Shown here: in pieces, positions 7,438 through 54,138 of the stretch | Layout: each line of letters opens with the position of its first letter | How positions within the stretch are numbered: the stretch's first letter is position 1 | Source: Levilactobacillus cerevisiae | GTDB lineage: Bacteria; Bacillota; Bacilli; Lactobacillales; Lactobacillaceae | DNA: 64,000 nucleotides | Reading direction: 5' to 3' | Assembly: GCF_003946245.1 (NCBI RefSeq) | Contig: NZ_RHNN01000018.1 | Span: forward strand, 1-64,000 | Notes under the pieces: generated by a model | Database searches by the model: none | The model's input: the letters and a program-made list of their open reading frames with translations, nothing else | Told to the model about the DNA's origin: nothing | Program-made: the position numbers and the translations under genes

Positions 7438-8544
7438 TTATTTTCCTCCCGTATGATGCCCCGGAACGCCGGCCGCAATCGTATGAATGTTGCCGCCACC
7501 GGTTAAAATCTCAGTTGCAGGGACGTCGACGACTTGGCGGGTCGGGTAAAGCGCAGCCAGTTGTTCGTGCGCCACGGCATCTTGCGGATCGTCAAAGGTC
7601 GGCATCAGAATCGCCTGATTCGTGGTGATGTAGCTCACGTAGCTGGCGGTTAAGCGCTGGCCAGCCACCCGGGGCAGCATGCCGTTGATTGGGTCAACAC
7701 CATTGGCTTCTGCTTCGCTCAGCGTCAAGACCCGGGGCGTCTGCAGTTTATGAATTTTAAAATGGCGGCCCCGGGCATCGGTCACTGCAGTCAGCCGTTC
7801 GTAGGCGTCTTCACTGATTTCGGCTTGCGGGTCGCTGGTATCGTCCGTCCAGGTCAAGACGACTTCACCGGGCGCCACGAAGTTCAGCATATTATCAATG
7901 TCACCATTGGTTTCATCCATAAAGTAGCCCTCTGGCAACCAGATGGTCTTGGTCACGCCAAGGTAGTCGTGGAAGATTTTTTCGGCATCCGCCTTGGTCA
8001 GTCCGCCGGGGTTCCGGCCTTCCGACAACACCACGCTCTCCGTGGCAATCAGCGTTCCCTGACCGTCCACGTGAATCGCGCAACCTTCCAGCACGGCAGC
8101 CACTTCGTACACGGGAAATCCCTGTAAGTCCGCAACCTTTTTACCGATTTGATTATCTTTATCCCAAGGGAAATACAGCCCATCTAAGAGGCCACCCCAG
8201 GCGTTAAACTGAAAATCAACCGCCCTGATGTCCCCAGCATCGTTGACCACGTAGAATGGCCCACAATCCTTCATCCAGGAATCATTACTACTCATTTCGA
8301 CGACACGAACCGCCGGCGATAAACTTGCCCGCGCGTGGTTGTACTGGTCCTGGTTGACCAACATCGTCACCGGCTCAAATTGGGCAATCGTTTCAGCTAA
8401 ACGGGCAAAAGCCTTTTGGGCTGGCTTGCCCCCTTCGCGCCAGTTATCTGGTCGTTCCGGCCAAATCATGTAGCTCGCAGCCTGGTCCTCGAATTCGCCA
8501 GGCATGTGAAAGCCGTCTTGTGCGGGTGTTTCTGCTAGTCTCAT
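7438..8544 (-). CDS. aguA2: Agmatine deiminase paralogue lacking catalytic residues (AguA2)
   Basis: The 368-residue member of the agmatine deiminase/peptidylarginine deiminase family aligns along its full length with the neighbouring AguA. However, the catalytic cysteine is threonine here (GGGNIHT, residue about 355, versus GGGNIHC) and the catalytic histidine is aspartate (DETNGDIDN versus DETNGHVDN). The acidic residues in SWMKDCG and in LEGCAIHVDG remain. The frame is intact, so it is a maintained protein rather than a decayed gene, but it should not deiminate agmatine. The start is the ATG at 8544 behind GGAGTGAG; an earlier ATG at 8571 has no ribosome site. It may be a pseudoenzyme, an agmatine-binding partner, or an enzyme with another chemistry. 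Confidence 0.9.
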   Translation of the reverse strand: MRLAETPAQDGFHMPGEFEDQAASYMIWPERPDNWREGGKPAQKAFARLAETIAQFEPVTMLVNQDQYNHARASLSPAVRVVEMSSNDSWMKDCGPFYVVNDAGDIRAVDFQFNAWGGLLDGLYFPWDKDNQIGKKVADLQGFPVYEVAAVLEGCAIHVDGQGTLIATESVVLSEGRNPGGLTKADAEKIFHDYLGVTKTIWLPEGYFMDETNGDIDNMLNFVAPGEVVLTWTDDTSDPQAEISEDAYERLTAVTDARGRHFKIHKLQTPRVLTLSEAEANGVDPINGMLPRVAGQRLTASYVSYITTNQAILMPTFDDPQDAVAHEQLAALYPTRQVVDVPATEILTGGGNIHTIAAGVPGHHTGGK

Positions 8545-8605
8545 ATTACTCACTCCGATTGTTTTTATCATTATTATGTTTCAGGTTAAACTGTTCGTTG
8601 CCAGT

Positions 8606-8699
8606 GCCTCCGGGATGGTGAAAATGAGACCGGACCGCTGTGGGCGAACGCCTGGAGCCATAGTGCGGTCTCCGGGCTTATTTTCACCATCCCTGCGGC
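8606..8699 (+). repeat. Structured intergenic repeat, family R1 (copy B, short form)
   Basis: The left arm GCCTCCGGGATGGTGAAAAT (from 8606) is complementary to ATTTTCACCATCCCTGCGGC (ending 8699). The arms differ from copy A but remain self-complementary. The conserved CGCTGTGGGCGAACG is present. The two internal hairpins of the full-length copies are missing. Confidence 0.7.
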
Positions 8700-8876
8700 C
8701 GACACAGGTTTAGCCCTGAATCCGTGAATCATGCTTTTGCCGTGCTCTGACTATGAATTAGCCAAGCTCCAATCCATCCGCTTTAAGTTCTTCACCATTT
8801 TACACTAAATTGATTCGTAAGACCCGTCGAATTTTAATGACCTGAATCACCAGCAAATTAGCCAAAATGATGGACA

Positions 8877-8913
8877 ACTAGCGGCATCAACCTAAGTCGA
8901 TACCGCTAGTCGG
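8877..8913. repeat. Hairpin in the arcC-aguA2 intergenic region
   Basis: ACTAGCGGCAT and its near-complement ATACCGCTAGT form a stem of about 11-12 bp around a short loop. No T-run follows on either strand. It lies between R1 copies B and C and has no assigned role. Confidence 0.45.
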
Positions 8914-8973
8914 ATGTTATCTGAATAGGTTCTTGGCAGTAAATACAACAACCCACGGGCCAAACACGTGTTA

Positions 8974-9154
8974 GCCGCAGGGAGTGGGCAAATAGGCTCA
9001 GCCGTGGGAATTACCTTAGTGGCGATTTTGGCCGCTTAGGTAATTGGTATCTTTGAGACTCGGGTTTCGAGGCTCAAAGTAAGTTGGTAGACCGCCTTTT
9101 GGCTACCAACGTCCGCCCACAGCGGCCCGGTCCTATTTGCCCACTCCCGGAGGC
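8974..9154 (-). repeat. Structured intergenic repeat, family R1 (copy C, full length, reverse)
   Basis: Read on the minus strand it has arms GCCTCCGGGAGTGGGC / GCCCACTCCCTGCGGC, extended by CAAATAGG / CCTATTTG. The internal stems are CTTTGAG/CTCAAAG and AATTACCT/AGGTAATT. Compared with copy A both the outer and the inner stems changed in a paired way. It lies head to head with the R2 copy at 9237, both inside the agmatine cluster between arcC and aguA2. Confidence 0.75.
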
Positions 9155-9236
9155 GCAGCTAACGCCTAGTCATCCCCACTAGCCAAATCCAACCATGAGA
9201 CCCAAGTAACCTGCAGCGCCCGTGTAAGCGACCAGA

Positions 9237-9406
9237 GGCGGGTCAACGTTTCCAGCTGTGTCGATGGTCTTAGCTGAGTGATTTGCTCAGGTTAGACCAT
9301 GGGCCGACCTTGGAACCTCACGGGTTCCAGTGAGGTTCCAAGGCGAGGCGGAAGACCGCCCCTCAGGCTGAAGCCGGGCCCCACAGCAGGAAACGTTGAC
9401 CCCGCC
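9237..9406 (+). repeat. Structured intergenic repeat, family R2 (copy D)
   Basis: Arms GGCGGGTCAACGTTTCC (9237-9253) and GGAAACGTTGACCCCGCC (9389-9406) enclose AGCTGTGTCGATGGTCTTAG, an internal stem CCTTGGAACCTCAC / GTGAGGTTCCAAGG, and CCCCACAGCAG. The reverse complement of 39017-39187 aligns along its whole length with different but still complementary arms. A weaker copy lies at 60413. No reading frame is conserved. Confidence 0.75.
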
Positions 9407-9434
9407 GCCGGGAGCGTCAGAGCAACCCCCAAGG

Positions 9435-10379
9435 TTACTTGCGGATGATGGTGCCGGAACCGTTTTCCAGGAACTCGCCCACGTTGGCCAGCGAGGTAAT
9501 CACGACTTGCCCCTGCGGCTGGTTGTTCACAAAGTCCAAAGCCGCTTGGATCTTCGGGAGCATGCTCCCCTTGGCAAATTGGTTCTCGGTAATGTACTGG
9601 TTCAGTTCCGCTGACGTGACGTCGGTCAATTGCTTTTGGTTGGGCTGGTTGAAGTTCACGAAGACGTGGTCAACGGCCGTCAAAATGATCAAGAGGTCAG
9701 CGTGGACAAGTTCTGCCAATTTTTCAGAGGCAAAGTCCTTGTCAATCACGGCTTCGCGGCCGACCAATTGGTTGCCTTCCTTGACGACGGGCACACCGCC
9801 ACCCCCTACGGAAACGGGAATGATATCGGCATCGACTAACGCGTTGACCACTGCGGATTCCTTGACGTCGATTGGCTTAGGTGAAGCCACAACGCGCCGG
9901 TATCCCCGGCCAGCGTCTTCCACGTACACGTTGTCTGGGTGTGCGGCCTGTTCAGCGGCCACTTCATCCTTGGTGTAGAAGGGACCGATGGGCTTGCTGG
10001 GATCCGTGAAGGCTGGGTCATCAGGAGAAACCTCCACCTGGGTGACCACCGTGGCAACGTCTTTTTTCAGGCCTTCATCAGCCAGAGCCTTGTCCATGGC
10101 ATTTTCTAACCAGTAACCGATGCTCCCTTGGGTCATGGCAACTGCCGTGTCCAGTGGCATTGCGGGATTCTTGGCCGTGCTGCCGGCGGCTTGTTGTAAG
10201 AGTAAGTTGCCGACTTGCGGGCCGTTTCCGTGAGAAATGATCAGCTGGTCACCCTGCTTGACGAATTTGACCAAATATTTAGCCGTGTCTGCCAGCGCCG
10301 CCTGTTGGGCTTCAGCTGAGGCATCATTGGCTAAGATCGCGTTGCCGCCTAAAGCGACCACAATTTTACGTTTTGACAT
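9435..10379 (-). CDS. arcC: Carbamate kinase of the agmatine pathway
   Basis: The 314-residue protein belongs to the amino-acid kinase family. It converts carbamoyl phosphate and ADP to carbamate and ATP, the energy-yielding last step of agmatine catabolism (aguC in AgDI nomenclature). Visible motifs are the N-terminal [22 protein letters not shown] (about 50) and the C-terminal [11 protein letters not shown]. It starts 232 nt after aguA, separated from it by repeat R3 and a terminator hairpin, so its level may be set by read-through or an own promoter. It is the only carbamate kinase in the window, and could also serve the PucR cluster at 46-54 kb. Confidence 0.92.
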
Positions 10380-10421
10380 GTTTACTTCACTCCTATTTTA
10401 TAAAAATCATGATTAACCGAG

Positions 10422-10452
10422 AAAAGAGCCTGGGTTTTTCCCAGGCTCTTTT
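10422..10452. terminator. Hairpin with T-runs on both strands between aguA and arcC
   Basis: A perfect 13-bp stem (AAAAGAGCCTGGG / CCCAGGCTCTTTT) has a 5-nt loop. On the minus strand it stands 43 nt before the arcC start, in the transcription direction of the cluster. It could therefore attenuate transcription into arcC, or end the aguB-aguD-aguA transcript. Confidence 0.75.
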
Positions 10453-10467
10453 TTGGATTTCCAACTT

Positions 10468-10608
10468 TATATTGTTGAAACGTGCGACCAAAGGCAGCTG
10501 ACTCCGCTTAAAACTGGTAGCCAAACAATCCAAGCCCGGGATTATTCGGCTACCAGCCTTAATGCTCGCCAGCTAACCGCCTTTTGTCCCACTCTTTTCC
10601 CGTTTCAA
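10468..10608 (-). repeat. Structured 3'-UTR repeat, family R3 (copy a)
   Basis: On the minus strand it follows the aguA stop directly. Outer arms TTGAAACG/CGTTTCAA enclose AAAGGCAGCT / AGCTAACCGCCTTT. The inner stem CTGGTAGCC / GGCTACCAG is extended by ACAATCC / GGATTAT. A second copy at 61139-61266 has the same order and again is followed by a strong terminator, suggesting a conserved 3'-end module. Confidence 0.7.
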
Positions 10609-10611
10609 AAT

Positions 10612-11706
10612 TTAAGCTTCAGGAACCTGTTGCGTGATGCAGTGGATGTTCCCACCACCGAGTAAGACTTCACGGGCAGGAACGCCGACAACTTTACGGT
10701 CTGGGTAAAGTTCTTCTAACGTGGCCTTAGCCTTCTCGTCGGCTGGGTCGCCGAACAGTGGGAAGACAATGCCGCCGTTAGCCGTGTAGTAGTTGACGTA
10801 GCTAGCAGCTAAGCGGTCGCCAGCAGTCCGTGGCAAGGTGCCGTCAACAGCGTCAACGCCTTCGCTTTCTTCCTTGGTAATGGTGATTGGCTTTGGCAAG
10901 TAGAGCTTAACGACCTTGATTTTCCGGCCCTTAGCATCCGTAGCGTTTTCCAAAATATCCAAGTTTTCTTTAGAAATCTTGTATTGGGGATCGTTCTTGT
11001 CGTCCGTCCAAGCCAGGGCAACGACGCCGGGCTTAACGAAGTTGGCAATGTTGTCCACGTGGCCGTTGGTTTCGTCCAGGTAAATCCCGTTCTTCAACCA
11101 GATAACCTTCTTCAGGTTCAGGTTTTCCTTCAGAACTTCTTCAATCTGTTCTTTGGAAAGCTGTGAGTTCCGGCCGTCGGATAATAAGCATTCTTCGGTG
11201 GTAATCAGGGTGCCTTCACCATCAACGTGAATGGAGCCACCTTCCAAAATGAAATCGTCTAACCGGTAACGGTCAACGTGTTCCAGTTCGGTCATCTTTT
11301 CAGCAACCCGGTCATCCTTGTCCCATGGGAAGTAGAGGCCATCAACCAAGCCACCCCATGAGTTAAAGGTCCAGTCGACGCCACGCATGTTGCCCTTGTC
11401 GTCTTTGACAAAGGTTGCGCCACAGTCGCGAATCCAAGAATCATCGTTAGACATTTCAACCACTTCAACATTGGCTGGCAACAGGTTCTTCGCGTTGGCG
11501 TATTGGTCATCGTTAACCCCGACCGTCACGTGTTCAAACTGAGAAATCGCCTTGGCAACTTCAACGAACGTCTTTTGGGCAGGCTTGCCACCGTTCCGCC
11601 AGTTGTCTGGACGTTGGGGCCACAGGATGTAAACACCCTTGTGTTGTTCAAATTCACCGGGCATGCGGTATCCGTCTTGCTTTGGTGTACTATCTAACGT
11701 CTTCAT
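10612..11706 (-). CDS. aguA: Agmatine deiminase
   Basis: The 364-residue enzyme hydrolyses agmatine to N-carbamoylputrescine and ammonia in the cytosol. Catalytic positions of the family are all present: Asp in SWIRDCG, Glu in [12 protein letters not shown], His and Asp in DETNGHVDN (about residue 217), and the nucleophile Cys in GGGNIHCIT (residue about 356). It lies 24 nt downstream of the antiporter gene on the same strand, within the order aguB-aguD-aguA-arcC. The intact active site identifies it as the functional copy, in contrast to the downstream paralogue. Confidence 0.95.
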
Positions 11707-11730
11707 AATTGGTTCAGCTCCTTATCAAAT

Positions 11731-13131
11731 TTAGTTGTTTTCTTTCGGTGTTGCTGAGACAGATTCTTGATCGGTCGGCTGGTGGTGTTCCGCGTAACGA
11801 ACCACAATTTCACCAACGACTAACGTGATGATGACCCCAATCAGAACTGGCATCTTGGCCGCGATTTCGCTAGCAGATGAGTTCATTGGGAAAATGGAGA
11901 AGATAATCGTTAAAATTAAGAGGACTTCTGGGACCCAAGTCATTAAATTGATCATAACTTTGCCACCAGGAACCTTAAATGGCCGTTCTGTGTCTGGATC
12001 TGACTTCCGTAATTTCCAGAATGCTGGGAATAACAGGGTGTAGGACAACAGTAAAGCGACAACGTTTAAGGAGAAGAAAGCCCAGAAAATGTCTTGGTTC
12101 GGAATGAATGGTGCGGCAATGACTAAGACGGTCGCAATAATCCCGTTCAAATAGCCAGTTCCGATTGGCATGCCTTTGGCGTTTTCCTTACCGAAGATTG
12201 CTGGTAAGGCGCCATCTTTCCCGGCGTAGTCGGCAACGTAGTTAACCCCTAACGCCCAGGATATCATTTCTGAAACTAAGATGTACAGGAAGAAGATACC
12301 GATTAGCACGACGAACCAGTTCATGTGACCAATCAACAGAACAAAACTGTCGATGAGACCACTGGAAGCGGATAATTTGTCAGTAGGAATCGCAGCCCCC
12401 ATCCCGAACGCGCCTAGTAAGTAGAAGAAGGCAATCAGGATACCACCATAGATGATGGCTTGGGGAATCTGTTTCTTCGGGTTGTCCATGTCGTCAGCCA
12501 TCGTGGCCACAACTTCAAAGCCTAAGAAGTTGAAGATGATGACGGACAAGTTGGTCAAGCCAGACAGGTTGAATTGTGGCATCAACGTGTGTAACGTGAA
12601 GGTGTTGGCCACCCCACGCGTCATAGCCACGTAGATTCCCAAGCCGCCCAACGCCAGAATCGTGAAAATCTTGGTGAAGGCCGCTAAGTTCATGATCCAT
12701 TTGCTTTCCGAAACGGGTTGGTTCCCCATCAGGACAACCACCCAAACGAAGATCAGCTGGACCACAATTGACCCGAACGTGTTGAGTTTGATATTAAATA
12801 TCTGGTCACTGACTTGGACAAAGAGCACAGCCAGACTAGCCATCCACAATGGATAGTTGATCCAGTAGAGCCAAGCCAACCGGCCACCCCAACGTTGACC
12901 AAACGCCTTGCGGACCCAGTCATATAAGCCACCGTCCCCGGTGTAGGTTGTCCCCAACTCGGATGAAATTAAACCATACGGGATGAAGAACAAGATTAAT
13001 AAGAAAATCCACCAGAAGAACTGCGACGGGCCGATAGCAGCCGCCGGAGCGACCGATTCCACGACCATGATGACAACCACCGACATTAAGACGGCGTCAA
13101 AGAGTCTAAATTTTTTCTTTTCTGTTTGCAC
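11731..13131 (-). CDS. aguD: Agmatine/putrescine antiporter (APC family)
   Basis: The 466-residue amino acid/polyamine antiporter has about 12 membrane segments and a hydrophilic C-terminal tail (about 440-466). The family glycine-rich start of helix 1 (ESVAPAAAIGPS) is visible. It sits between the putrescine carbamoyltransferase and agmatine deiminase genes, so it is expected to exchange external agmatine for internal putrescine across the plasma membrane. It starts with GTG at 13131 behind AAGGAGATAGGATC. The function is inferred from family and context. Confidence 0.88.
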   Translation of the reverse strand: MQTEKKKFRLFDAVLMSVVVIMVVESVAPAAAIGPSQFFWWIFLLILFFIPYGLISSELGTTYTGDGGLYDWVRKAFGQRWGGRLAWLYWINYPLWMASLAVLFVQVSDQIFNIKLNTFGSIVVQLIFVWVVVLMGNQPVSESKWIMNLAAFTKIFTILALGGLGIYVAMTRGVANTFTLHTLMPQFNLSGLTNLSVIIFNFLGFEVVATMADDMDNPKKQIPQAIIYGGILIAFFYLLGAFGMGAAIPTDKLSASSGLIDSFVLLIGHMNWFVVLIGIFFLYILVSEMISWALGVNYVADYAGKDGALPAIFGKENAKGMPIGTGYLNGIIATVLVIAAPFIPNQDIFWAFFSLNVVALLLSYTLLFPAFWKLRKSDPDTERPFKVPGGKVMINLMTWVPEVLLILTIIFSIFPMNSSASEIAAKMPVLIGVIITLVVGEIVVRYAEHHQPTDQESVSATPKENN

Positions 13132-13197
13132 GATCCTATCTCCTTAGTCCGCTATCCTTGTTCCGTTGTGCGGCACGCTAATCGGATAGCCAGTTTA

Positions 13198-14229
13198 TTA
13201 GTTGTTACGTTCGTCAACGGCGTTCCGTAACATTAATTCAAATTCAGCATCGTACTTGTCGGCAACAGCCTGAGAAGCGTACTTTAATTCTGGGTTCAAC
13301 AGGTAAACGAAGATTGCACGCATCGCCGTCTTACGGTTTTCAGCTTCGTCCCAAACAATGGAGTAGTCGGAGTCAATGACTTCGTCGGTAACTTCTTCGC
13401 CACGGGTAGCTGGGAGGCAGTGCATGAACTTCACGTGATCGGAGGCCTTGGCAACTAAGTCAGCGTTGACTTGGTACTTCGGGTAGAAAATCTTCATCCG
13501 GTCTTCTTCAGACAGTTCAGCTTCGTACAGGCCGTACCAAACGTCGGTGTAGATGAAGTCAGCATCCTTCAAGGCTTCGTCAGCGTCTTCCGTGATTAAG
13601 ACGGAACCGCCAGAGATTTCAGCGTTCTTCTTCCCGATTTCAAGGGTTTCAGGCTTGATTTGGAAGCCTTTAGGGCCAAATTGTACAAAGTCCATCCCCA
13701 TCTTGGTAGCCATAAACATGGTTGACACACAAACTTGGGTAGCGTCACCAACAAAGACAATCTTGCAGTCGCTGAGCTTTTTGCCCTTTGGTAAATGTTC
13801 CGTCATAGTAATGATGTCGCCAAGTTCTTGGGTTGGGTGATTGTAGTCACTCATGAAGTTCACAACAGGAACCTTGGCGAATTTACCAACTTCAGCAACG
13901 GTGTGGTGACGTTCAACACGGGCACCGATGATGTCCAGGATCCGGCCAAGAACTTGTGAGGTGTCTTCGATGGATTCGTGACCACCTAATTGGATTTGGC
14001 CTGGTGCCAGGTATTGGGCGTGACCACCTAATTCGGTCATGGCTGCTTCGGCGGAGGTCCGGGTACGGGTTGAAGATTGTTCGAAGATCATGCCGAGCGT
14101 CTTGTTCTTCAATAATGGTGGATAGTAGCCGTTCTTGATGGATTCCTTAATCTTGATCCCCAATTCAATCATGTATTGGATTTCGTCTTTCGTGTAAGTG
14201 TTGGTGTCAATAAAATCACGTTTAGTCAT
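13198..14229 (-). CDS. aguB: Putrescine carbamoyltransferase
   Basis: The 343-residue carbamoyltransferase phosphorolyses N-carbamoylputrescine to putrescine and carbamoyl phosphate. The carbamoyl-phosphate site SSTRTRTS (about 53), HPTQ and [14 protein letters not shown] are intact. The acceptor side reads GDATQVC and [11 protein letters not shown] rather than the GDARNNMGN and DVWVSMG of ornithine transcarbamylases. This is the signature expected of a putrescine enzyme, as is the extra C-terminal helix (about 320-343). It is the first gene of the agmatine cluster, downstream of a cre-like site and a palindromic operator. Confidence 0.93.
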
Positions 14230-46278: not shown

Positions 46279-47268
46279 CTATTGAGTCACCAATTTGAAA
46301 ACATCCTCTTTGTTTCCGGTCAGGTAATTCACGATGTTTTCCGTTGATATCCGTTGAAGGCCCGCCATGGAATCCTGACTGTAAAAGGCCACATGAGGCG
46401 TAACAATGACGTTATCTCTCCCCACCAGTGGGTGATGAGCCAGATCCGGATGCTCGTCTTCCAAGACATCCATGGCTGCACCTTTCAGCTGACCCTGATC
46501 CAGCGCCGCAATCAAATCTGCCTCTCGCAATTCAGCCCCTCTACCCATGTTGATAAAGTAGGGATGCTTCCTCATCTGAGAAAATTTAGCCGTATCAAAG
46601 TAGCGATGATTGGTTTCATTCAGATTCATATGGTTCGTGACGACATCGGCTTCCATGAACAAAGTTTCCGGATCAATCAGCCGAACAAAATCGCTAACTA
46701 ACGCATAGTGCTCGTTGGTAATAAAGGGATCGGTCGCTAATACCCGCATTCCTAATGCGTGGGCTCGGGTAGCAACAGCCCGACCAATTTTACCCAAGCC
46801 GACAATTCCCAAGGTCATATTTTCAATTCGCAAATTCGGCAAACACAGGTCATAACGCCACTCATGATTGCGCTCAACATTGTTTGCATACGCCTTCAAA
46901 TTGCGGACCAGCGCATGCATGACGCCAATGGTAAATTCGGCTACGTCTTGCGTACAATATTCCCCTACTGGGCACACACCAACGCCATACTCCTGGGCAA
47001 CTTTTAGGTCAACGTTATCGTAGCCCGTAGCGTTAATGGACACGACCTTGAGCTGTGGCGCGTGCTCAAACACTTCGCGGTCAAGCTTAACAAAGGCCGT
47101 GAGAATAGCATCCACATCCGCAACCAGTTTTAAAAATTCAGCTCGCCGGTCATCTTGATACTCGTACACCATGATTTCACAGTCATCTAGCCCTGCACTC
47201 AAAACTTGGCGTTCAATATCGTGTTGTGGCATCATCGATTCCTTGTAATCGGTAATTAATATTTTCAT
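46279..47268 (-). CDS. D-2-hydroxyacid dehydrogenase (NAD-dependent)
   Basis: The 329-residue protein belongs to the D-lactate dehydrogenase/phosphoglycerate dehydrogenase family. The nucleotide-binding motif is TLGIVGLGKIGRAVA (about 150). The catalytic Arg, Glu and His lie in INMGRGAELR, AMDVLEDEHPD and VTPHVAFYS. It reduces a 2-keto acid or oxidises a D-2-hydroxy acid. As the last gene of a cluster with a deiminase-like hydrolase and a carbamoyltransferase, it may act on their carbon product rather than on pyruvate. The substrate is unknown. Confidence 0.88.
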   Translation of the reverse strand: MKILITDYKESMMPQHDIERQVLSAGLDDCEIMVYEYQDDRRAEFLKLVADVDAILTAFVKLDREVFEHAPQLKVVSINATGYDNVDLKVAQEYGVGVCPVGEYCTQDVAEFTIGVMHALVRNLKAYANNVERNHEWRYDLCLPNLRIENMTLGIVGLGKIGRAVATRAHALGMRVLATDPFITNEHYALVSDFVRLIDPETLFMEADVVTNHMNLNETNHRYFDTAKFSQMRKHPYFINMGRGAELREADLIAALDQGQLKGAAMDVLEDEHPDLAHHPLVGRDNVIVTPHVAFYSQDSMAGLQRISTENIVNYLTGNKEDVFKLVTQ

Positions 47269-47312
47269 AGTCGTCCCCCTGACATCCCGACATCAATTAG
47301 TTCAGCTTCATA

Positions 47313-48170
47313 TTATGGCCGAGACAGTGGGAAAGTCATGCAGTGAGGACCGCCACCAGCTTTGAGAATTTGTTCCAGCGGTAACTCAATAACATTGACA
47401 CCAGCAGCTCGTAAATCACGGTTAACCGATTGATTGTTCTTAATTCCCAAGACCGTGTTGTGGCCAATGGCTTCAACGTTGCACCCATGTTTAAAGACCA
47501 GCTCACTTGGGACATGAATGATGTTGAAGTTACGCCGCTTGAGCATTTCCAAGAAATTGTGGGGCAGTTCATCGGTTGCAGCTAAACAAACGTGCGGTGC
47601 CACAATATTAAAAATCATATCTAAATGCAGGTTAGCTGGGGCCGCTGGTACGCCGACAACTGTGTAACCAAACTTAGCTAACTGATCACGCAGGTTATCT
47701 ACGCCCGCTTGGTCCGTCCGGTCAACTTGGCCAAAGGCAATCGTATGTTCATCGATCATCCAAATGTCTCCACCCTCGAAAGTTCCGGCATTACACCGCG
47801 CAATAACAGGAATACCCAGTTCTGCGAGTTTCTTTTCATAGGCTTCACTTTCTGCCTGACGGACTGGATGCCGGAAGCGGCCCATAATCGCACCTTCCTT
47901 AACCATTCCCCCAAAGTCACGGGCAAACGTTTCAATCTCTAGGTCTGGCGTAGGTTCCATCTCAACAACTTCAATGCCGTTGTCCTTGTAGGCCTGAATC
48001 AAAGTTTCCCATTCCTCGACCATCTTTTTATTTTCTTCGGACTCACCTTTATCCATCCAGTTCTTGGTGATTTCGTTAATTGCATTAAATTTATAATACT
48101 GTGGTGAGCAAACTAACACTTTCTTCAAATCATTGGTCGCGTTAGAAACAAATACTTGTTCATTACTCAT
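47313..48170 (-). CDS. Arginine-deiminase-like guanidino-group hydrolase of unknown substrate
   Basis: The 285-residue protein has the pentein (guanidino-modifying) fold. Catalytic positions are conserved: Arg-Asp in TFARDFGG, Glu and Asp in FEGGDIW, His and Asp in LHLDMIF, and the nucleophile Cys in GGPHCMTFP near the C-terminus. It is much shorter than arginine deiminase (about 410), closer to DDAH or citrulline hydrolase size. In arginine deiminase the segment before Cys is GRGRGGGHC; here it is LKAGGGPHC, without the carboxylate-binding arginine. The start at 48170 follows GGAGG. It lies 45 nt before the dehydrogenase gene and just after a YfcC carrier gene. Confidence 0.82.
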   Translation of the reverse strand: MSNEQVFVSNATNDLKKVLVCSPQYYKFNAINEITKNWMDKGESEENKKMVEEWETLIQAYKDNGIEVVEMEPTPDLEIETFARDFGGMVKEGAIMGRFRHPVRQAESEAYEKKLAELGIPVIARCNAGTFEGGDIWMIDEHTIAFGQVDRTDQAGVDNLRDQLAKFGYTVVGVPAAPANLHLDMIFNIVAPHVCLAATDELPHNFLEMLKRRNFNIIHVPSELVFKHGCNVEAIGHNTVLGIKNNQSVNRDLRAAGVNVIELPLEQILKAGGGPHCMTFPLSRP

Positions 48171-48188
48171 TATTATTTCCTCCAATAT

Positions 48189-49706
48189 CTATTGAACTTT
48201 AACCAGCACCGCAGCAATCAGGATCAGGCATGAAACCACGAAGTAGGCACAAACGGGCTTCCAGGTTACCTTGATCCAGGTACCATAATTAACGTGAGCC
48301 GCCTGAATACAAGTCATTACAATAATTGATGTTGGCATGATTGTTTTGACAATTCCCAAAGATAAATTGTAAATGATGACCATGACAGCTTTTGATACCC
48401 CAGCAAAGGTCGCCAGTGGCGCCATGATTGACATAGTCGCTGCCGCTAAACCGGTGGAGCTAGGAATGAAGCTAGCCAACAGGATATAAACAACTAGACA
48501 CACAATAACAAAGACAATTGGCGACAGACTACCCAAAGTTGTTTCACAGGCATGTAACACCGTTGCTGTGATATTTCCGTTAGTCATGAGGACTTGAATC
48601 CCCCGAGCTAATGGGATGATAAAGGCTGTCGAAACTAAACCAGCCGCCCCCTTGATGATCGTATTGATGATATCATCAGTCGAGTAGTGCATAATCTTGC
48701 CGGCAATAAAGGTCATGACCAGCAACAAGCCATTGATTTCATTGAAGTACCAATTACCAAATGGCACGACATCGCTACCGATTACGGAAGAGATGATTGG
48801 TGCATGATTAATGAAATGGGCAAGGTCATCGAAGAGCGTCCAGTGGGCATTCAACGACGTCCATGGTACCAACGATACAATCATAATGACGAAGGTCCAG
48901 ATAAAGACATGGAAGACCTTACGTTGCTGCTTCGTTAGAGAAACCTCTTGCCCAGTACCAGCGAATTCCTTAAGATCCGCTTGTCGGCGTGCAAACTGAG
49001 GTGACTTTTCCGGATGCGCTTGAATTTTTTTAGCATACAAGCAGATAATCGTTGAGACTAATGCCAATAAGACCACGAACATGCCTACCCGGAATACCAG
49101 ACCGGCTCCAGGGCTTATGCCCGCAATTCCAGAAGCAATCCCCGTTGAAAACGGATTGACAATTGAGGCCGCACAACCTGCCTGAGTACCCAAAATGACA
49201 ATCATTAAAGCAACAATGGTATCCAACCCCAGTGAGAGAATAATGGGTAGGAACATTAAGAGATAGACGAAACCCTCTTCATATGATCCTTGAACCGTCC
49301 CAAAGATACCCATGATAACGGTGAGCACCGCAATCAACACATATTGATTCTTCTGATATTTCTCAGCGACTCCACGCAGCGCAATGTTAACCGCGCCAGT
49401 CTTGTCCATCATCTCTAAGAAACTCCCGAACATCAAAACGTTCAATGAGATTGTGATGGCGCCCGTAACCTTAGCGTTCCCCACCATCCCAATAATTGGG
49501 GCTTCAATAATGTCCCAGAGACCTTGATGATTGGCCTTTACCGTATGATACGTATTGGCAATTGCATTACCAGCTTGATTCGTTCGGTAGGCCCCGCCAG
49601 GAATAATCCAAGTTAACAGCGCCACCATAACCAAAACCATAAAGATAATCACATAGGTATTGGGTGTTTTAAGTTTCCGCTTCTTTTTCTTTTTTTCCAT
49701 CTCCAT
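48189..49706 (-). CDS. YfcC/ArcD-type carrier (copy 1)
   Basis: The 505-residue membrane protein has about 12 helices, a lysine-rich cytosolic N-terminus and the family signature WIIPGGAYRTNQAG (about 38). The family (DcuC/YfcC superfamily) includes arginine/ornithine and other amino-acid exchangers. It sits between the carbamoyltransferase and deiminase-like genes, so it should import their substrate or exchange substrate for product. The start at 49706 leaves a normal gap to AGGAG; ATGs at 49712 and 49700 are alternatives. A paralogue is encoded at 52525-54039. Confidence 0.85.
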   Translation of the reverse strand: MEMEKKKKKRKLKTPNTYVIIFMVLVMVALLTWIIPGGAYRTNQAGNAIANTYHTVKANHQGLWDIIEAPIIGMVGNAKVTGAITISLNVLMFGSFLEMMDKTGAVNIALRGVAEKYQKNQYVLIAVLTVIMGIFGTVQGSYEEGFVYLLMFLPIILSLGLDTIVALMIVILGTQAGCAASIVNPFSTGIASGIAGISPGAGLVFRVGMFVVLLALVSTIICLYAKKIQAHPEKSPQFARRQADLKEFAGTGQEVSLTKQQRKVFHVFIWTFVIMIVSLVPWTSLNAHWTLFDDLAHFINHAPIISSVIGSDVVPFGNWYFNEINGLLLVMTFIAGKIMHYSTDDIINTIIKGAAGLVSTAFIIPLARGIQVLMTNGNITATVLHACETTLGSLSPIVFVIVCLVVYILLASFIPSSTGLAAATMSIMAPLATFAGVSKAVMVIIYNLSLGIVKTIMPTSIIVMTCIQAAHVNYGTWIKVTWKPVCAYFVVSCLILIAAVLVKVQ

Positions 49707-49738
49707 TGCCATGCTCCTATCTCTTGTGGTTAGGGTTA

Positions 49739-50677
49739 TTAGTTGGCATATGCCGCAATAATCCCTTTAATGGAGTGCATCCGATTCTCTGCTTCATCAA
49801 AAATCACTGATTGTGGGCTCTCAAGGACTTCATCAGTCACTTCTTCTCCACGGTGAGCTGGTAAGCAGTGCATATAAATCGCTGTTGATTTCGCCATCTT
49901 CATGGCATCTGCGGTCACCTGGTAAGGTTCAAACGCCTTCTTCAGCTTCGTAATTTCCTCATCAGTTTGACCCATACTGTATTCGGCATTACCGTAAACA
50001 ATATCGGCATCCTTCATGGCTTGCTCAAAGTCTTGGGTAATTTCAATATGTGCTCCCGTAACTTTTGCCCGCTTCTGAGCTTCATCAACCAGCATTTGAT
50101 TTGGTTCGATCCCAGCCGGGCAAACAATAGACATGTCCATCCCCAACGTAGCCGCAAAGATCATGGTCGTATAACAAACGTTGTATAGGTTACCCATGTA
50201 GGTTAACTTCAACCCTTCATACTTACCAAATTTTTCCTTGATGGTCATCATGTCCGCAATTCCCTGAGTAGGGTGAGCAATATCAGTCAAGCCATTGATA
50301 ACTGGCGCCTTCATCCACTTTGAGCATTCCTCAACAATTTCATGACCAAAGGTTCTAATGAATAAGCCATCATACATCCGATCCAGAACTCGGCAGGTAT
50401 CCTTCAAAGGTTCTCCCCGACTCATCTGAAGTTCGTCAGGCCGTAAGTATGTAACCGTGATACCTAAGTCGGCTGCTGCCCGTTGGAAAGCATTCCGTGT
50501 CCGGGTACTATTCTTTTCAAATAAAGCAGCCCAAACTTGTCCTTTAAAATAATCATGGGGTTCACGCGCAATAAATTTTTTCTTAAAGTCCAACGATAAG
50601 TCGGTTAGAAACTCAATCTCCTCGCGATTAAGATCTTTGAAAGCCAGAAAGTCTTTTCCTTTAAACTGATTTCTCAT
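49739..50677 (-). CDS. Carbamoyltransferase of the OTC family with altered acceptor site
   Basis: The 312-residue protein keeps the carbamoyl-phosphate site: STRTR (about 57), HPTQ (about 135) and [15 protein letters not shown] (about 270). The acceptor side differs from ornithine transcarbamylase. GDARNNMGN is replaced by GNLYNVCYT, and TDVWVSMG by GNAEYSMG, so the Asn and Asp that hold the ornithine alpha-amino-acid group become Val and Asn. It also lacks the TDVWYGLYE signature of the putrescine enzyme at 13198. It is the first minus-strand gene of the PucR cluster, followed by a carrier and a deiminase-like gene. It probably phosphorolyses a carbamoylated compound other than citrulline. 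Confidence 0.85.
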   Translation of the reverse strand: MRNQFKGKDFLAFKDLNREEIEFLTDLSLDFKKKFIAREPHDYFKGQVWAALFEKNSTRTRNAFQRAAADLGITVTYLRPDELQMSRGEPLKDTCRVLDRMYDGLFIRTFGHEIVEECSKWMKAPVINGLTDIAHPTQGIADMMTIKEKFGKYEGLKLTYMGNLYNVCYTTMIFAATLGMDMSIVCPAGIEPNQMLVDEAQKRAKVTGAHIEITQDFEQAMKDADIVYGNAEYSMGQTDEEITKLKKAFEPYQVTADAMKMAKSTAIYMHCLPAHRGEEVTDEVLESPQSVIFDEAENRMHSIKGIIAAYAN

Positions 50678-50729
50678 TCTTCTTCACGTCCTTTATCAAC
50701 TTATTAATCATCTTCACGGGACTATCATA

Positions 50730-50750
50730 CCGAGAAATCGTAAATCTCGG
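50730..50750. promoter_or_regulatory. Inverted repeat, candidate PucR operator
   Basis: CCGAGA and TCTCGG are separated by 9 nt in the divergent region between the carbamoyltransferase and pucR genes. The central position suits a regulator of both directions. Confidence 0.45.
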
Positions 50751-50768
50751 AACTAGACTTTTATCTAT

Positions 50769-50786
50769 ATTGGAAACGCTTTCTAT
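50769..50786 (+). promoter_or_regulatory. cre-like site upstream of pucR
   Basis: ATTGGAAACGCTTTCTAT matches the CcpA cre consensus at all but one position. It lies between the divergent genes, so the cluster is likely under catabolite control. Confidence 0.55.
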
Positions 50787-50832
50787 GGACTATGTTACAA
50801 TTTACTTAAACCATTTAACGAGGTGCTACTCT

Positions 50833-52452
50833 ATGAATGACGCAATTACCGTCACTGACCTGCTTGGCCATTCCGTGTTTCAAAATTCTGATACATTTTC
50901 GGATAGCGCTGGCCTAAGCCATGAAGTTGGTACGTGTACCATTATGGATATCCCCAACATCATGGGCTGGCTAAATGCAAACGACGTGGTTATTATTGGT
51001 GAATATACCGACAACTGTCTAACCTCTGAATTCATCAGCAGCCTCCATCACAAGCAAATCGCCTGTCTCATTACCAAGAAAAAATACCGTCCTAACTTTA
51101 CTAAGGAAATTATTCACCAATTTTCTGAGTACCACATTCCCATTATTTTGGTCACCGATAATTACGCGTGGAGTGCCGTTATCAGGGCAGTTCAGCAGCT
51201 ACAATTCGGTCATTATCAAAAAATAATAGATGAAAAAGAGACTTTTTATCAGTCCCTGATTCGTTCATCCGTCAATCACTCTGCACATGAAAGCCTGGGC
51301 TCAACCTTTAACGTGAATACCGGGGCTTCCCTTGCTATCGTTGATCAAGATAAAAATTTAGTCGATGCGTCATTTGACGTGGATTGGGTCTCACTGCTGC
51401 CTGAGCTCAGCCTTAGCGACCTTCAGCCTAACCAATCCATCACTAAAAATGACAACCAACTGTTTGGTCATTTACTCATGACCTCGGCAAGCTTTCCGCT
51501 GGCCACCGTTTGGAGTATTCCGGTCTATTATCGCCGCCAGTTGCGGTATTACCTCTTGGTAGGCTTACAAACGCCAACGAAGTATCTACCTGAGAACCTT
51601 CTAGTTAAACTAGAGAGTGTTAAGAAGGTAATGCTCATCAAAGAAGAGCTACGCCAAGATTTTATTTACGAACGCTTTTTCAAGGTTAACGAGGCCTTTC
51701 AAGCAATCGCCAGTCATACGGCGAACAAGGAAGCTGATTTTATCACCTTGCAGTCTTTTGCTGGTATTCAGTTGCAGCAACATCTCCAGGTGATTCAAAT
51801 CTCCAGCCTGCAGCCGTCGGACTCACTTTTTGAAAACAATGTTTTAGCCATTCAGGCAAGCTTGGCAAAATTAATTCGACACTCTTTTCCCGGAATCACT
51901 ATCTACCACAATCGCTCTTGGCTAGTCCTGACAAGTGCCTCTAAGTCTGCCCTGACACAAGACTTGTCTAGCATTATGAATCAGCTCGACCAAGCCTACC
52001 CGGATATCCATTTTCGTGCAGGAGTTTCGCAACGACACGAGTTTTCACGCCTGAAGAAGACACTCACTGAGGCCAACGGAGCATTAAGTTACCTCCGTGC
52101 CAATCATCCGAATCAACAATTGCAGTTCTTTGATCAGCTGGGCATTAATCAACTCTTTATTGATAATGACTTTCATCTCAATAAGGCCTATATCACGACA
52201 ATGGTCACGACCTTCATGACGCCCCTTGTCAATTATGATCAGGAACATCACACGGAGCTTGTCAAGACACTAGGTTGTTACTTCCGCCACCAATTTTCGC
52301 ATACGCAAACCAGTACTGATCTTTTTATTCATAAGAACACTCTCCGCAACCGTCTAGCTAAAATTGAAGAACTCATTGGTCCTTCCCACGAAGACTTCTG
52401 GCTAAATTTACAAATTAGTTACCGCCTTTACCAACAAATCGAAACCGCTTAG
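50833..52452 (+). CDS. PucR-family transcriptional regulator
   Basis: The 539-residue protein has an N-terminal PucR ligand-binding domain (about 1-130, ITVTDLLGHSVFQ...VVIIGEYTDN), a middle GGDEF-like regulatory region (about 280-420), and the PucR C-terminal HTH (about 470-535, TSTDLFIHKNTLRNRLAKIEELIG). PucR relatives control purine, allantoin and amino-acid degradation. It is divergent from the carbamoyltransferase operon and convergent with a second YfcC carrier gene. The start is the ATG at 50833 behind GAGGTG; the frame extends 21 codons further upstream into the cre site without support. Confidence 0.9.
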   Translation: MNDAITVTDLLGHSVFQNSDTFSDSAGLSHEVGTCTIMDIPNIMGWLNANDVVIIGEYTDNCLTSEFISSLHHKQIACLITKKKYRPNFTKEIIHQFSEYHIPIILVTDNYAWSAVIRAVQQLQFGHYQKIIDEKETFYQSLIRSSVNHSAHESLGSTFNVNTGASLAIVDQDKNLVDASFDVDWVSLLPELSLSDLQPNQSITKNDNQLFGHLLMTSASFPLATVWSIPVYYRRQLRYYLLVGLQTPTKYLPENLLVKLESVKKVMLIKEELRQDFIYERFFKVNEAFQAIASHTANKEADFITLQSFAGIQLQQHLQVIQISSLQPSDSLFENNVLAIQASLAKLIRHSFPGITIYHNRSWLVLTSASKSALTQDLSSIMNQLDQAYPDIHFRAGVSQRHEFSRLKKTLTEANGALSYLRANHPNQQLQFFDQLGINQLFIDNDFHLNKAYITTMVTTFMTPLVNYDQEHHTELVKTLGCYFRHQFSHTQTSTDLFIHKNTLRNRLAKIEELIGPSHEDFWLNLQISYRLYQQIETA

Positions 52453-52460
52453 TAAGCCAA

Positions 52461-52508
52461 AATGGCCCTTAGACAACAACCGCATGCAGCGGCGTATCTA
52501 AGGGCCTT
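52461..52508. terminator. Bidirectional hairpin between pucR and the second carrier gene
   Basis: GGCCCTTAGA pairs with TCTAAGGGCC around about 24 nt. It separates convergent genes; T-runs are short on both sides. Confidence 0.6.
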
Positions 52509-52524
52509 ACCTATGAAATTAATT

Positions 52525-54039
52525 TTAAAGGAGCGTTAGAATAACCAAAAAGACACAAGAAACACAGAACAAAATGACGATTAATTTGGCCGTCCATCGC
52601 CACCAAACTGAAAAACTTACATTGGCTAATGTCAGGGCACCAACCAGCATACCCGCAGTGGGCGTAATAGCAGTGACAAGCCCTGCAGCTGATTGATAAG
52701 CCGAAACCATGATACTCCCATCAATGTGTGCAAAGTGAGCCAGAGACCCCATGACACCCATCGTTGCCGCAGCTAGTCCCGAGGTTGAAGGAATCAAAAA
52801 TGCTAGCAAGACAAAGAAGATAAAGGCACAAATGATAAACGGCCCTTTCGGCATCCCCGTCAAACTCTTCTCCCCATAGTGGAGCAAGGTTGCCGTAATC
52901 TTACCGTCGTTCATGACCACTTGAATCCCCCGGGCGACCCCAACAATAATCGCGACACTCAACAAGTCCTGCATGCCCTTGATGAAGGCGTCCATGAAGG
53001 CTTTTTCACGAATGTGACCGACAGCCATCACGACAACCGACATGAAAAAGAATAGTAACGTAATCTCGTTGAAGTACCAGCTACCCAGCGCTACCATCTT
53101 GTGACCAACGATAGTACCAAGAATTGGCGTCGTCACAATTAGATGATTAAGCGACTCGAAGAAGGTCCAGTGTGCATTAATACTAGTCCAAGGAACCAGT
53201 CCCAGAATCATAATCCCAAAGGTTAAGGCAAAAACTAGTAGTACGCGTCGTTGCACTTTCGTAATGGCTCCAGTTGCTTTAGAATTCGTAGCGGTCATAA
53301 ACCGCCGCTCATTTTCTTCTCGTAAATGATAAACCAATGACTTCGTTGGATCCGCCTTAATTTTGCTAGCATAGTGTAGCACGTACCACGTCTCAATACC
53401 GGTAACAATCACCCATAAAATAAGCCGTGAAAGAAGACCCCGTCCGGGAGAAATACCGATAATTCCGGATGCTAGGCCCGTCGTAAACGGATTAACGGTT
53501 GAGGCCAAATCCCCTACCCGCGTGCTTAACATGATTACCGCAGCCGAAACAATCGGGTCGTACCCCACACTCATCATCACTGGCGTGAGTAACGGTACGA
53601 ACGCGAGCGTTTCCTCGCCCATACCATATGTAGAACCACCGAGGGAGAAGAGAATAATCAGGGTGACAATCAGCCGTTTTTCATGTCCTCGTGACTTGTC
53701 GACAATGACCTTAATCCCATCATCCAGAGCACCCGTTTGATTGACGACCCCTAAAAAGCCCCCAATCACGAGAATGAACAGGGAAATATCAATTGCCCCA
53801 ACCGTATGTTGATTACCAATCATTCCGGTAATGGGCGCCATAAAAACATTCCAAATACCCTGTGGCTGACTTTTAACGGTATGATAGGTCCCCGTCGTGA
53901 GCTGGCCGGCCGAGTTGGTCTGATAAGCACCAGCTGGAATTACCCAGGTTAAGACTGCCATTAGAACAATGAGCCAAAACAGAATTGTGAATGCGGTTGG
54001 CATTTGAAAGCGGAACCGCTTTTTCGTTTTATTTGTCAT
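52525..54039 (-). CDS. YfcC/ArcD-type carrier (copy 2)
   Basis: The 504-residue membrane protein is paralogous to the product of 48189-49706 over its full length (shared WVIPAGAYQTNSAG start region, NPFTTGLASGIIGISPG, GVARGIQVVMN and a TSGLAAATMGVMG helix). It is a 12-helix carrier of the same family. Presence of two copies suggests separate uptake and exchange steps, or two related substrates. It is convergent with pucR and preceded by a cre-like site. Confidence 0.85.
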   Translation of the reverse strand: MTNKTKKRFRFQMPTAFTILFWLIVLMAVLTWVIPAGAYQTNSAGQLTTGTYHTVKSQPQGIWNVFMAPITGMIGNQHTVGAIDISLFILVIGGFLGVVNQTGALDDGIKVIVDKSRGHEKRLIVTLIILFSLGGSTYGMGEETLAFVPLLTPVMMSVGYDPIVSAAVIMLSTRVGDLASTVNPFTTGLASGIIGISPGRGLLSRLILWVIVTGIETWYVLHYASKIKADPTKSLVYHLREENERRFMTATNSKATGAITKVQRRVLLVFALTFGIMILGLVPWTSINAHWTFFESLNHLIVTTPILGTIVGHKMVALGSWYFNEITLLFFFMSVVVMAVGHIREKAFMDAFIKGMQDLLSVAIIVGVARGIQVVMNDGKITATLLHYGEKSLTGMPKGPFIICAFIFFVLLAFLIPSTSGLAAATMGVMGSLAHFAHIDGSIMVSAYQSAAGLVTAITPTAGMLVGALTLANVSFSVWWRWTAKLIVILFCVSCVFLVILTLL

Positions 54040-54120: not shown

Positions 54121-54138
54121 TATGAAGGCGCTTTCAAG
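54121..54138 (-). promoter_or_regulatory. cre-like site upstream of the second carrier gene
   Basis: TATGAAGGCGCTTTCAAG matches the cre consensus with two deviations, 80 nt upstream of the gene. Together with the site at 50769 it suggests catabolite repression of the whole cluster. Confidence 0.4.

Follow-up and report, generated by a model that had tools for sequence, protein, structure and literature searches.

A PucR-associated gene cluster of Levilactobacillus cerevisiae predicted to catabolize a guanidino acid lacking the alpha-amino group

Six genes at positions 46279-54039 of a 64,000-nucleotide stretch of Levilactobacillus cerevisiae DNA (contig NZ_RHNN01000018.1, positions 1 to 64,000; hereafter the window) probably specify a catabolic deiminase-carbamoyltransferase pathway for a deamino guanidino acid, the best candidates from the sequence being argininic acid (2-hydroxy-5-guanidinovalerate) and 2-ketoarginine. 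The two central enzymes keep the residues that hold the substrate carboxylate and have lost the ligand of the alpha-amino group, which supports the proposal of an earlier note on this DNA that the cluster is a third variant besides the arginine deiminase (ADI) and agmatine deiminase (AgDI) pathways. All six genes named in that note were found as open reading frames (ORFs) at the coordinates and on the strands given there, and Pfam and NCBIfam confirmed their families (2-Hacid_dh, ADI/DDAH, two DcuC/YfcC carriers, OTCace and PucR). The cluster consists of:

46279..47268, minus strand, D-2-hydroxyacid dehydrogenase (DH; Pfam PF02826, 165.8 bits)
47313..48185, minus strand, deiminase-like hydrolase of the ADI/DDAH family (ADIL; start probably the ATG at 48170)
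48189..49712, minus strand, YfcC/DcuC-family carrier 1 (PF03606), a member of the conserved block
49739..50677, minus strand, carbamoyltransferase of the ornithine carbamoyltransferase (OTC) family, OTCace (OTCL)
50785..52452, plus strand, divergent PucR-family regulator (PF07905 and PF13556)
52525..54039, minus strand, carrier 2 of the DcuC/YfcC family

The carbamoyltransferase keeps the carboxylate ligand and lacks the amino ligand

OTCL retains the STRTR, HPTQ and HCLP motifs, the SMG loop (YSMG) and the carboxylate-binding lysine, K55, two residues before STRT, while in the TDVWxSMG loop the amino-binding Asp has given way to N230. In OTC this lysine pairs with the carboxylate of ornithine, and putrescine carbamoyltransferase (PTC) has Gln in its place (PMC3282769). 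Asp231 of E. coli OTC binds the alpha-amino group of ornithine, and its replacement in D231A is reported to lower kcat/KM for ornithine 580-fold (PMC7004355). The PTC of the L. cerevisiae genome also has Gln at the lysine position. Since PTC, acting on putrescine, which has no carboxylate, carries Asp without Lys, and OTCL carries Lys without Asp, the substrate of OTCL should, by these residues, be a carboxylic acid without an amino group.

The same pattern recurs in related loci. In a scan of 84,980 species genomes, ADIL had 146 relatives, and the best 80 were kept for the counts given here. The deiminase tree omits the short fragment L062, so that its 80 rows represent 79 loci, two of the rows being from L068. 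Neighbors were counted in windows of 7.5 kb for the main locus counts and 6.5 kb in another, with some loci truncated at contig ends. ORF calling was mechanical, and antisense ORFs in GC-rich genomes hid some genes, so protein matches to the window genes were added as a correction. Among the OTC rows from ADIL loci, the window included, Asp is missing in 40 of 41 and Lys is kept in 40 of 41 (the exception is L068). The sole ADIL-locus OTC with Asp is in L087 (6466-9846), where a carbamate kinase lies between it and an ADIL with Ser at the amino site; L087 is perhaps a true arginine version. All nine comparison rows (ArcB, ArcB2 and PTC of the same genome and six other OTCs) keep Asp. In the phylum sample, Asp and the carboxylate Lys are each present in 30/30 OTCs, these being the best 30 of 40 model matches, with L158 and L184 repeating earlier rows and the ten unfetched matches including OTCL and two Asp-less kin.

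When the loop columns were removed, the Asp-less OTCs fell into two separate groups in the tree, of 25 and 14 rows (39 in all; the partial row L075, in which Asp is also absent, was dropped from the OTC trees, and L068, which lacks both Asp and Lys, from the careful tree). The larger group unites the window with Firmicutes, Klebsiella, Serratia and others; the smaller contains Eggerthellaceae and allies plus Neobacillus, and joins the ArcB of L. cerevisiae in the quick tree. The loop of the smaller group reads T/A-NVWAAMG, with Asp changed to Asn and Ser to Ala; Ser267 of human OTC also binds the alpha-amino group. A single origin of the 39 rows was rejected (p-value of the approximately unbiased test, p-AU, 1e-53), on a tree in which long branches are present. 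By this phylogeny, the operon seems to have taken up a second carbamoyltransferase lineage, in which the same kind of change occurred. The change is called a loss because ordinary OTCs have Asp; parsimony on the unrooted trees does not separate gain from loss.

Among curated models, OTCL passes the OTC equivalog TIGR00658 (358.9 bits, cut-off 280.85), a model that does not discriminate, since the PTC of the same genome passes too (333.7 bits); the residue set for ornithine is incomplete, with Lys and SMG kept and Asp replaced by Asn230. It falls short of the PTC model TIGR04384 (274.3 against 500 bits), having Lys and YSMG rather than Gln and YGLY, and of the YgeW models PRK07200 (87.5 against 453 bits) and TIGR03316 (85.5 against 500 bits). 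The outcome that the earlier note named as refuting, with both enzymes inside the canonical ADI and OTC clades, did not arise; in OTCL it is the ligand for the ornithine amino group that has been lost.

Two further loci carry unusual OTC-family proteins. At L068 (8947-13920), two ADIL genes accompany a carbamate kinase and a very divergent member with SLRTR and YPKCWPSLEY for the usual motifs, and at L136 (4613-7452) another Asp-less OTC (YANTYHSMGT) adjoins a carbamate kinase and a 38% identical ADIL with Tyr at the amino site.

The deiminase has lost the corresponding ligand

ADIL is a member of the ADI/DDAH guanidinium-modifying superfamily and keeps D90, E137, H187, D189 and C282 together with R109 (in VRQAE) and R156 (in DRT). 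Across 44 aligned rows both Arg positions are kept and the catalytic Cys, His and acidic residues are invariant. The alpha-amino ligand site of ADIL is occupied by I84, and profile alignment to solved structures puts the Val or Ile of the family in the position taken by Asn in ADI and by Asp in Pseudomonas DDAH. The ADI Asn, which binds the alpha-amino group, is Asn160 in the numbering of the P. aeruginosa deiminase, the two Args being Arg185 and Arg243, and the Pseudomonas DDAH Asp is the counterpart of human Asp73. In human DDAH1, Asp73 binds the alpha-amino group (PMC10958460), and in ADI two Args bind the carboxylate and the Asn lies at the amino/carboxylate end of arginine (PMC3474736).

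The residue at this site tracks the presence of an OTC gene nearby, which was found at 27/27 loci with Val or Ile, 3/3 with Leu, 9/14 with Tyr, 1/9 with Ser, 1/2 with His or Trp and 0/25 with Asn. The neighbors of the Asn and Ser types point to arginine as their probable substrate: genes for an M20 (RocB-like) protein, ornithine aminotransferase or ABC components accompany 20 of the 25 deiminases of Asn type, and 7 of the 9 of Ser type are close to genes for CtlX and ornithine cyclodeaminase. We presume the M20 protein to be RocB-like from Pfam M20; it matched no NCBIfam model at E 1e-15.

The Asn-type loci (L108-L125 and L185 in Lactobacillaceae, and many of L063, L065, L067, L073, L074 and L081-L105) mostly combine the M20 protein with ornithine aminotransferase, and often an ABC transporter or a HisC-like aminotransferase plus DH. 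They likely represent an uncharacterized route for arginine, with hydrolysis of citrulline as a possible task of the RocB-like protein. In Moritella and Psychromonas (L070-L072, L077, L078, L092 and L096), a Ser-type ADIL occurs together with genes for a CtlX-like protein and ornithine cyclodeaminase, a set that suggests conversion of arginine to citrulline, ornithine and proline. L061 and L059 carry a Tyr-type ADIL without OTC, near genes that we take, from the protein starts, to resemble M20 carbamoyl-amino-acid hydrolases; L061 also has what are presumably phosphonate-type and PucR-like genes.

By curated models, ADIL lies far from ArcA, DDAH, CtlX and AguA. It scored 69 bits against 489.1 for TIGR01078 (ArcA), 93.9 against 300, 73.5 against 340 and 46.8 against 450 bits for the NCBIfam dimethylargininase models, and 60.4 against 450 bits for ArgZ (NF052232). 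At E 1e-5, ADIL matched neither AguA nor the CtlX model NF046062, which a neighboring gene in a Psychromonas locus does match. The predicted structure of ADIL (predicted local distance difference test, pLDDT, 95.9) has the fold of 2-nitroimidazole nitrohydrolase, ArgZ, AgrE, ADI and DDAH, with Foldseek template-modelling (TM) scores by query of 0.74-0.84 and identities of 16-23% among the matches listed.

A dehydrogenase group accompanies the deiminase family

DH has the catalytic Arg, Glu and His and the NAD-binding domain of the D-2-hydroxyacid dehydrogenase superfamily; R243, E272 and H292 are invariant in 35 rows, and its model has a pLDDT of 95.1. D180 follows the second Rossmann strand and suggests, from its position, NAD as the cofactor. 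In the quick tree the dehydrogenases of the clusters and of the Asn-type clusters form one 44-row group (Shimodaira-Hasegawa-like approximate likelihood ratio test, SH-aLRT, 99), from which the five other L. cerevisiae paralogues in the tree, 27-31% identical to the window DH, are excluded; L062 appears in this tree as a cluster DH. Of the 15 Asn-type rows with a DH match, 13 also have a HisC-like aminotransferase, and one (L067) has a distant DH outside the group. The aminotransferase alongside DH suggests that its substrate is the 2-oxo acid derived from a basic C5 amino acid, ornithine or arginine. Acidic positions typical of the group (D7, E/D103 and D/E108) might bind a positively charged side chain.

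The gene set is conserved in distant phyla

The 27 Val/Ile-type loci have OTC in 27, YfcC in 27, DH in 26, PucR in 25 and carbamate kinase in 11, and OTC, YfcC, DH and the deiminase occur together in 26/27, so the gene set is conserved elsewhere, as anticipated. The block of OTC, YfcC, ADIL and DH, in varying order, was found in Levilactobacillus, Streptococcus thoraltensis, Vagococcus, Enterococcus, Atopobacter, Ignavigranum, Neobacillus and Schaedlerella, and also in two Klebsiella species, Eggerthellaceae, Coriobacteriaceae (including Collinsella) and Atopobiaceae. Conservation over such distances places the gene set beyond chance.

The cluster is nonetheless rare. In the phylum sample (398 genomes), ADIL was matched in 2 at E 1e-60, DH in 1 at E 1e-75 and OTCL in 9 at E 1e-90, 2 of the 9 with at least 55% identity. 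Among 397 Lactobacillaceae genomes, 22 have an ADIL match (window included), 3 being of the Val/Ile type with OTCL and 19 of the Asn type without an OTCL match. This rare occurrence, scattered over phyla, suggests horizontal spread. The gene set was not described in the titles and abstract openings of open-licence PubMed Central papers among the matches listed, a result that is weak as proof of absence.

Proposed pathway and competing explanations

The 2-hydroxy or 2-keto analogue of arginine put forward in the earlier note fits best with the predicted binding residues and DH, the presence of DH being the reason for favoring argininic acid or 2-ketoarginine over other deamino acids. In the proposed pathway, a YfcC carrier would import the deamino-arginine, ADIL would turn its guanidino group into a ureido group with release of ammonia, and OTCL would split the ureido acid by phosphorolysis into carbamoyl phosphate and a 5-amino acid (5-amino-2-hydroxy- or 5-amino-2-oxo-valerate). 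A carbamate kinase encoded elsewhere would make ATP from the carbamoyl phosphate, and a YfcC carrier would export the product. From general equilibria, phosphorolysis is unfavorable, and reduction of the 2-oxo acid could both recycle NADH and pull it; the NAD-type DH would thus interconvert the 2-hydroxy and 2-oxo forms, mainly in the NADH-consuming direction. The sequence itself shows the gene set and its conservation, the retained catalytic and carboxylate residues, the missing amino ligand of each enzyme and the two Asp-less carbamoyltransferase lineages, whereas the exact substrate, the direction of DH, the transport roles, the regulation and the destination of the carbamoyl phosphate are inferred. 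The fuller proposal is more tentative: that this is a third fermentative carbamoyl-phosphate pathway, for argininic acid or 2-ketoarginine, with ATP formation coupled to NADH-recycling reduction of the 2-oxo acid, spread over Firmicutes, Enterobacteriaceae and Actinomycetota, and with a second OTC lineage showing the same loss. In pigs, argininic acid was raised in antibiotic-treated ileal loops (PMC12562777), which agrees with microbial consumption and has other possible explanations.

Several observations weigh against this assignment. Most OTCs of the Firmicutes/Klebsiella block have Met in place of the Asp, and Met is poorly suited to pairing with a hydroxyl. The OTC Asp is also described as important for deprotonation of ornithine (PMC9506655), so its loss could instead reflect changed catalysis; Asp to Asn is not among the OTC mutants in the literature drawn on here, and the ADI study places the Asn at the amino/carboxylate end of arginine and assigns it to neither group (PMC3474736). 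The amino ligand is lost without DH in the Leu and Tyr types (Serratia, Atlantibacter, Lachnospiraceae), so that this loss alone is no proof of a 2-hydroxy or 2-oxo substrate, and the DH group occurs in the Asn-type clusters as well. In Isobaculum (L029) the block occurs with no DH within ~9 kb, the cluster itself contains no carbamate kinase, and argininic acid in the pig study was still raised after microbiota transfer (PMC12562777).

The strongest competitor, unlikely in our estimation, is a guanidino acid without a further substituent, for example 4-guanidinobutyrate or 5-guanidinovalerate, with DH serving redox balance on the side. Any deamino acid would be compatible with the missing amino ligand, and the Leu-type and Tyr-type loci, which have OTC in 3/3 and 9/14 cases, have a DH match in only 0 and 1, respectively. 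Such a substrate would, however, leave the 2-hydroxyacid dehydrogenase without a task, and DH is present in 26/27 Val/Ile-type loci and comes from a group tied to the ADIL family. Less likely again is a second, ordinary arginine deiminase pathway whose unusual enzymes still use arginine: the catalytic residues are intact and OTCL exceeds the OTC cut-off, but so does the PTC of this genome, both enzymes have lost the amino ligand (in two OTC lineages), D231A costs E. coli OTC 580-fold, and arcABC is already present in the genome. The purine or ureide route, with OTCL acting on a short ureido acid of the allantoate, ureidoglycolate or oxalurate type and DH on a glyoxylate-like acid, appears the least probable; the PucR regulator, DH scores with glyoxylate/hydroxypyruvate reductase models (all under cut-off), a reported carbamoyltransferase that phosphorolyzes allantoate (PMC4016543) and the M20-hydrolase-like and PucR-like genes of the Tyr-type locus L061, recognized from protein starts, speak for it, but no purine-pathway gene was recognized beside the clusters, where few neighbors are annotated, and the Eggerthellaceae OTC loop resembles that of ArcB save for Asp to Asn and Ser to Ala, with Lys and the loop Met kept, pointing to an acid of ornithine length.

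Genomic context and regulation

For a pathway acting on argininic acid or 2-ketoarginine, carbamate kinase would have to be supplied from outside the cluster. The absence of a canonical arcA or carbamate kinase from 46279-54039, claimed in the earlier note, was confirmed; the genome encodes three carbamate kinases, all located elsewhere, and a canonical arcA-arcB-arcC on contig C82. One of the three lies in the window:

9435..10379, minus strand, carbamate kinase of the agmatine region (TIGR00746, over cut-off)

This kinase, to which the earlier note assigned the carbamoyl phosphate of the cluster, is one of the three that could take it. It is flanked in the agmatine region (7438-14229) by agmatine deiminases at 7438-8571 and 10612-11706, together with an antiporter-like carrier and the PTC. 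Contig C12 (L133, 8496-12097) encodes a further member of the OTC family, the fourth, alongside a carbamate kinase and a YfcC carrier; no deiminase was found in the 19 kb read there, and the search of the L. cerevisiae genome returned no further ADI-family deiminase. This module could be citrulline-using.

Carrier 2 is 40% identical to carrier 1. It is also present in Levilactobacillus mulengensis, the nearest named relative (ADIL 94% identical), and a 35% homologue adjoins two Collinsella clusters, where a second YfcC carrier directly follows DH (L042, 11132-12610; L049, near 11400). Paired YfcC carriers, as in Collinsella and the window, may be functional. The six genes have a GC content of 44-47%, lower than the 50% of the window and the 55-57% of the flanking genes on each side, a composition consistent with acquired DNA. 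A plasmid search with positions 49000-54000 gave no match; the genome measures 3.38 Mb.

PucR would control the cluster. Of the catabolite-responsive element (cre)-like sites that had been claimed, a scan with the cre consensus placed two at the cluster:

50770..50784, plus strand, cre-like site, perfect match to the consensus (consensus match only)
54122..54137, no strand assigned, cre-like near-palindrome with one mismatch, upstream of carrier 2 (consensus match only)

Across the whole window, with one mismatch allowed, their number is at the level of chance (39 sites against a shuffle mean of 32.4, with 17 of 100 shuffles reaching 39), so only the position of the sites is relied on. The first overlaps the TTG at 50770, and for this reason we judge the ATG at 50785 to be the better placed predicted start of PucR; in L. 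mulengensis a cre-like site begins 63 nt before the PucR ORF. Scans for promoters and terminators found about as many as in shuffled sequence (16 against a mean of 15.0, and 9 against 7.8).

Relation to known pathways and implications

The ADI pathway, arcABC(D), follows the same succession of steps (deiminase, catabolic carbamoyltransferase, carbamate kinase and carrier), and the second OTC lineage of the clusters groups with the ArcB of this genome. The cluster differs from it in a 290-residue DDAH/ArgZ-like deiminase far from ArcA, in the loss of both amino ligands and in the additional D-2-hydroxyacid dehydrogenase and PucR regulator. Like the AgDI pathway (aguA/ptcA), it appears as a specialized variant of one logic through a change in the specificity loop of the carbamoyltransferase, but the change is the opposite one, PTC keeping Asp and losing the carboxylate Lys and the SMG loop, and an AguA-type deiminase is lacking. 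ADIL shares fold and catalytic residues with DDAH and ArgZ/AgrE, yet lies far under the curated cut-offs for the DDAH, ArgZ-AgrE and CtlX group and has Val/Ile at the amino-ligand position. The Asn-type systems of Liquorilactobacillus, Clostridium and Selenomonas use the same deiminase family (~42-51% identity) and often a DH of the same group, but retain Asn as the amino ligand, lack an OTC in the neighborhood and probably act on arginine. The ADI/AgDI logic is known and the substrate class appears to be new, with the repeated active-site change as the strongest evidence; this repeated change allows a direct test of the substrate on two purified enzymes.

If this reading is right, a residue rule follows, in which Asp plus Lys marks a carbamoyltransferase for an amino acid, Asp alone one for an amine and Lys alone one for an acid, and it would correct automatic annotations as ornithine carbamoyltransferase. 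Argininic acid and 2-ketoarginine are arginine derivatives listed among the uremic retention solutes (PMC8745165). If the proposed pathway is true, genes for the microbial removal of these two compounds would be named, and the cluster would constitute a third member of the ATP-yielding ADI/AgDI family.

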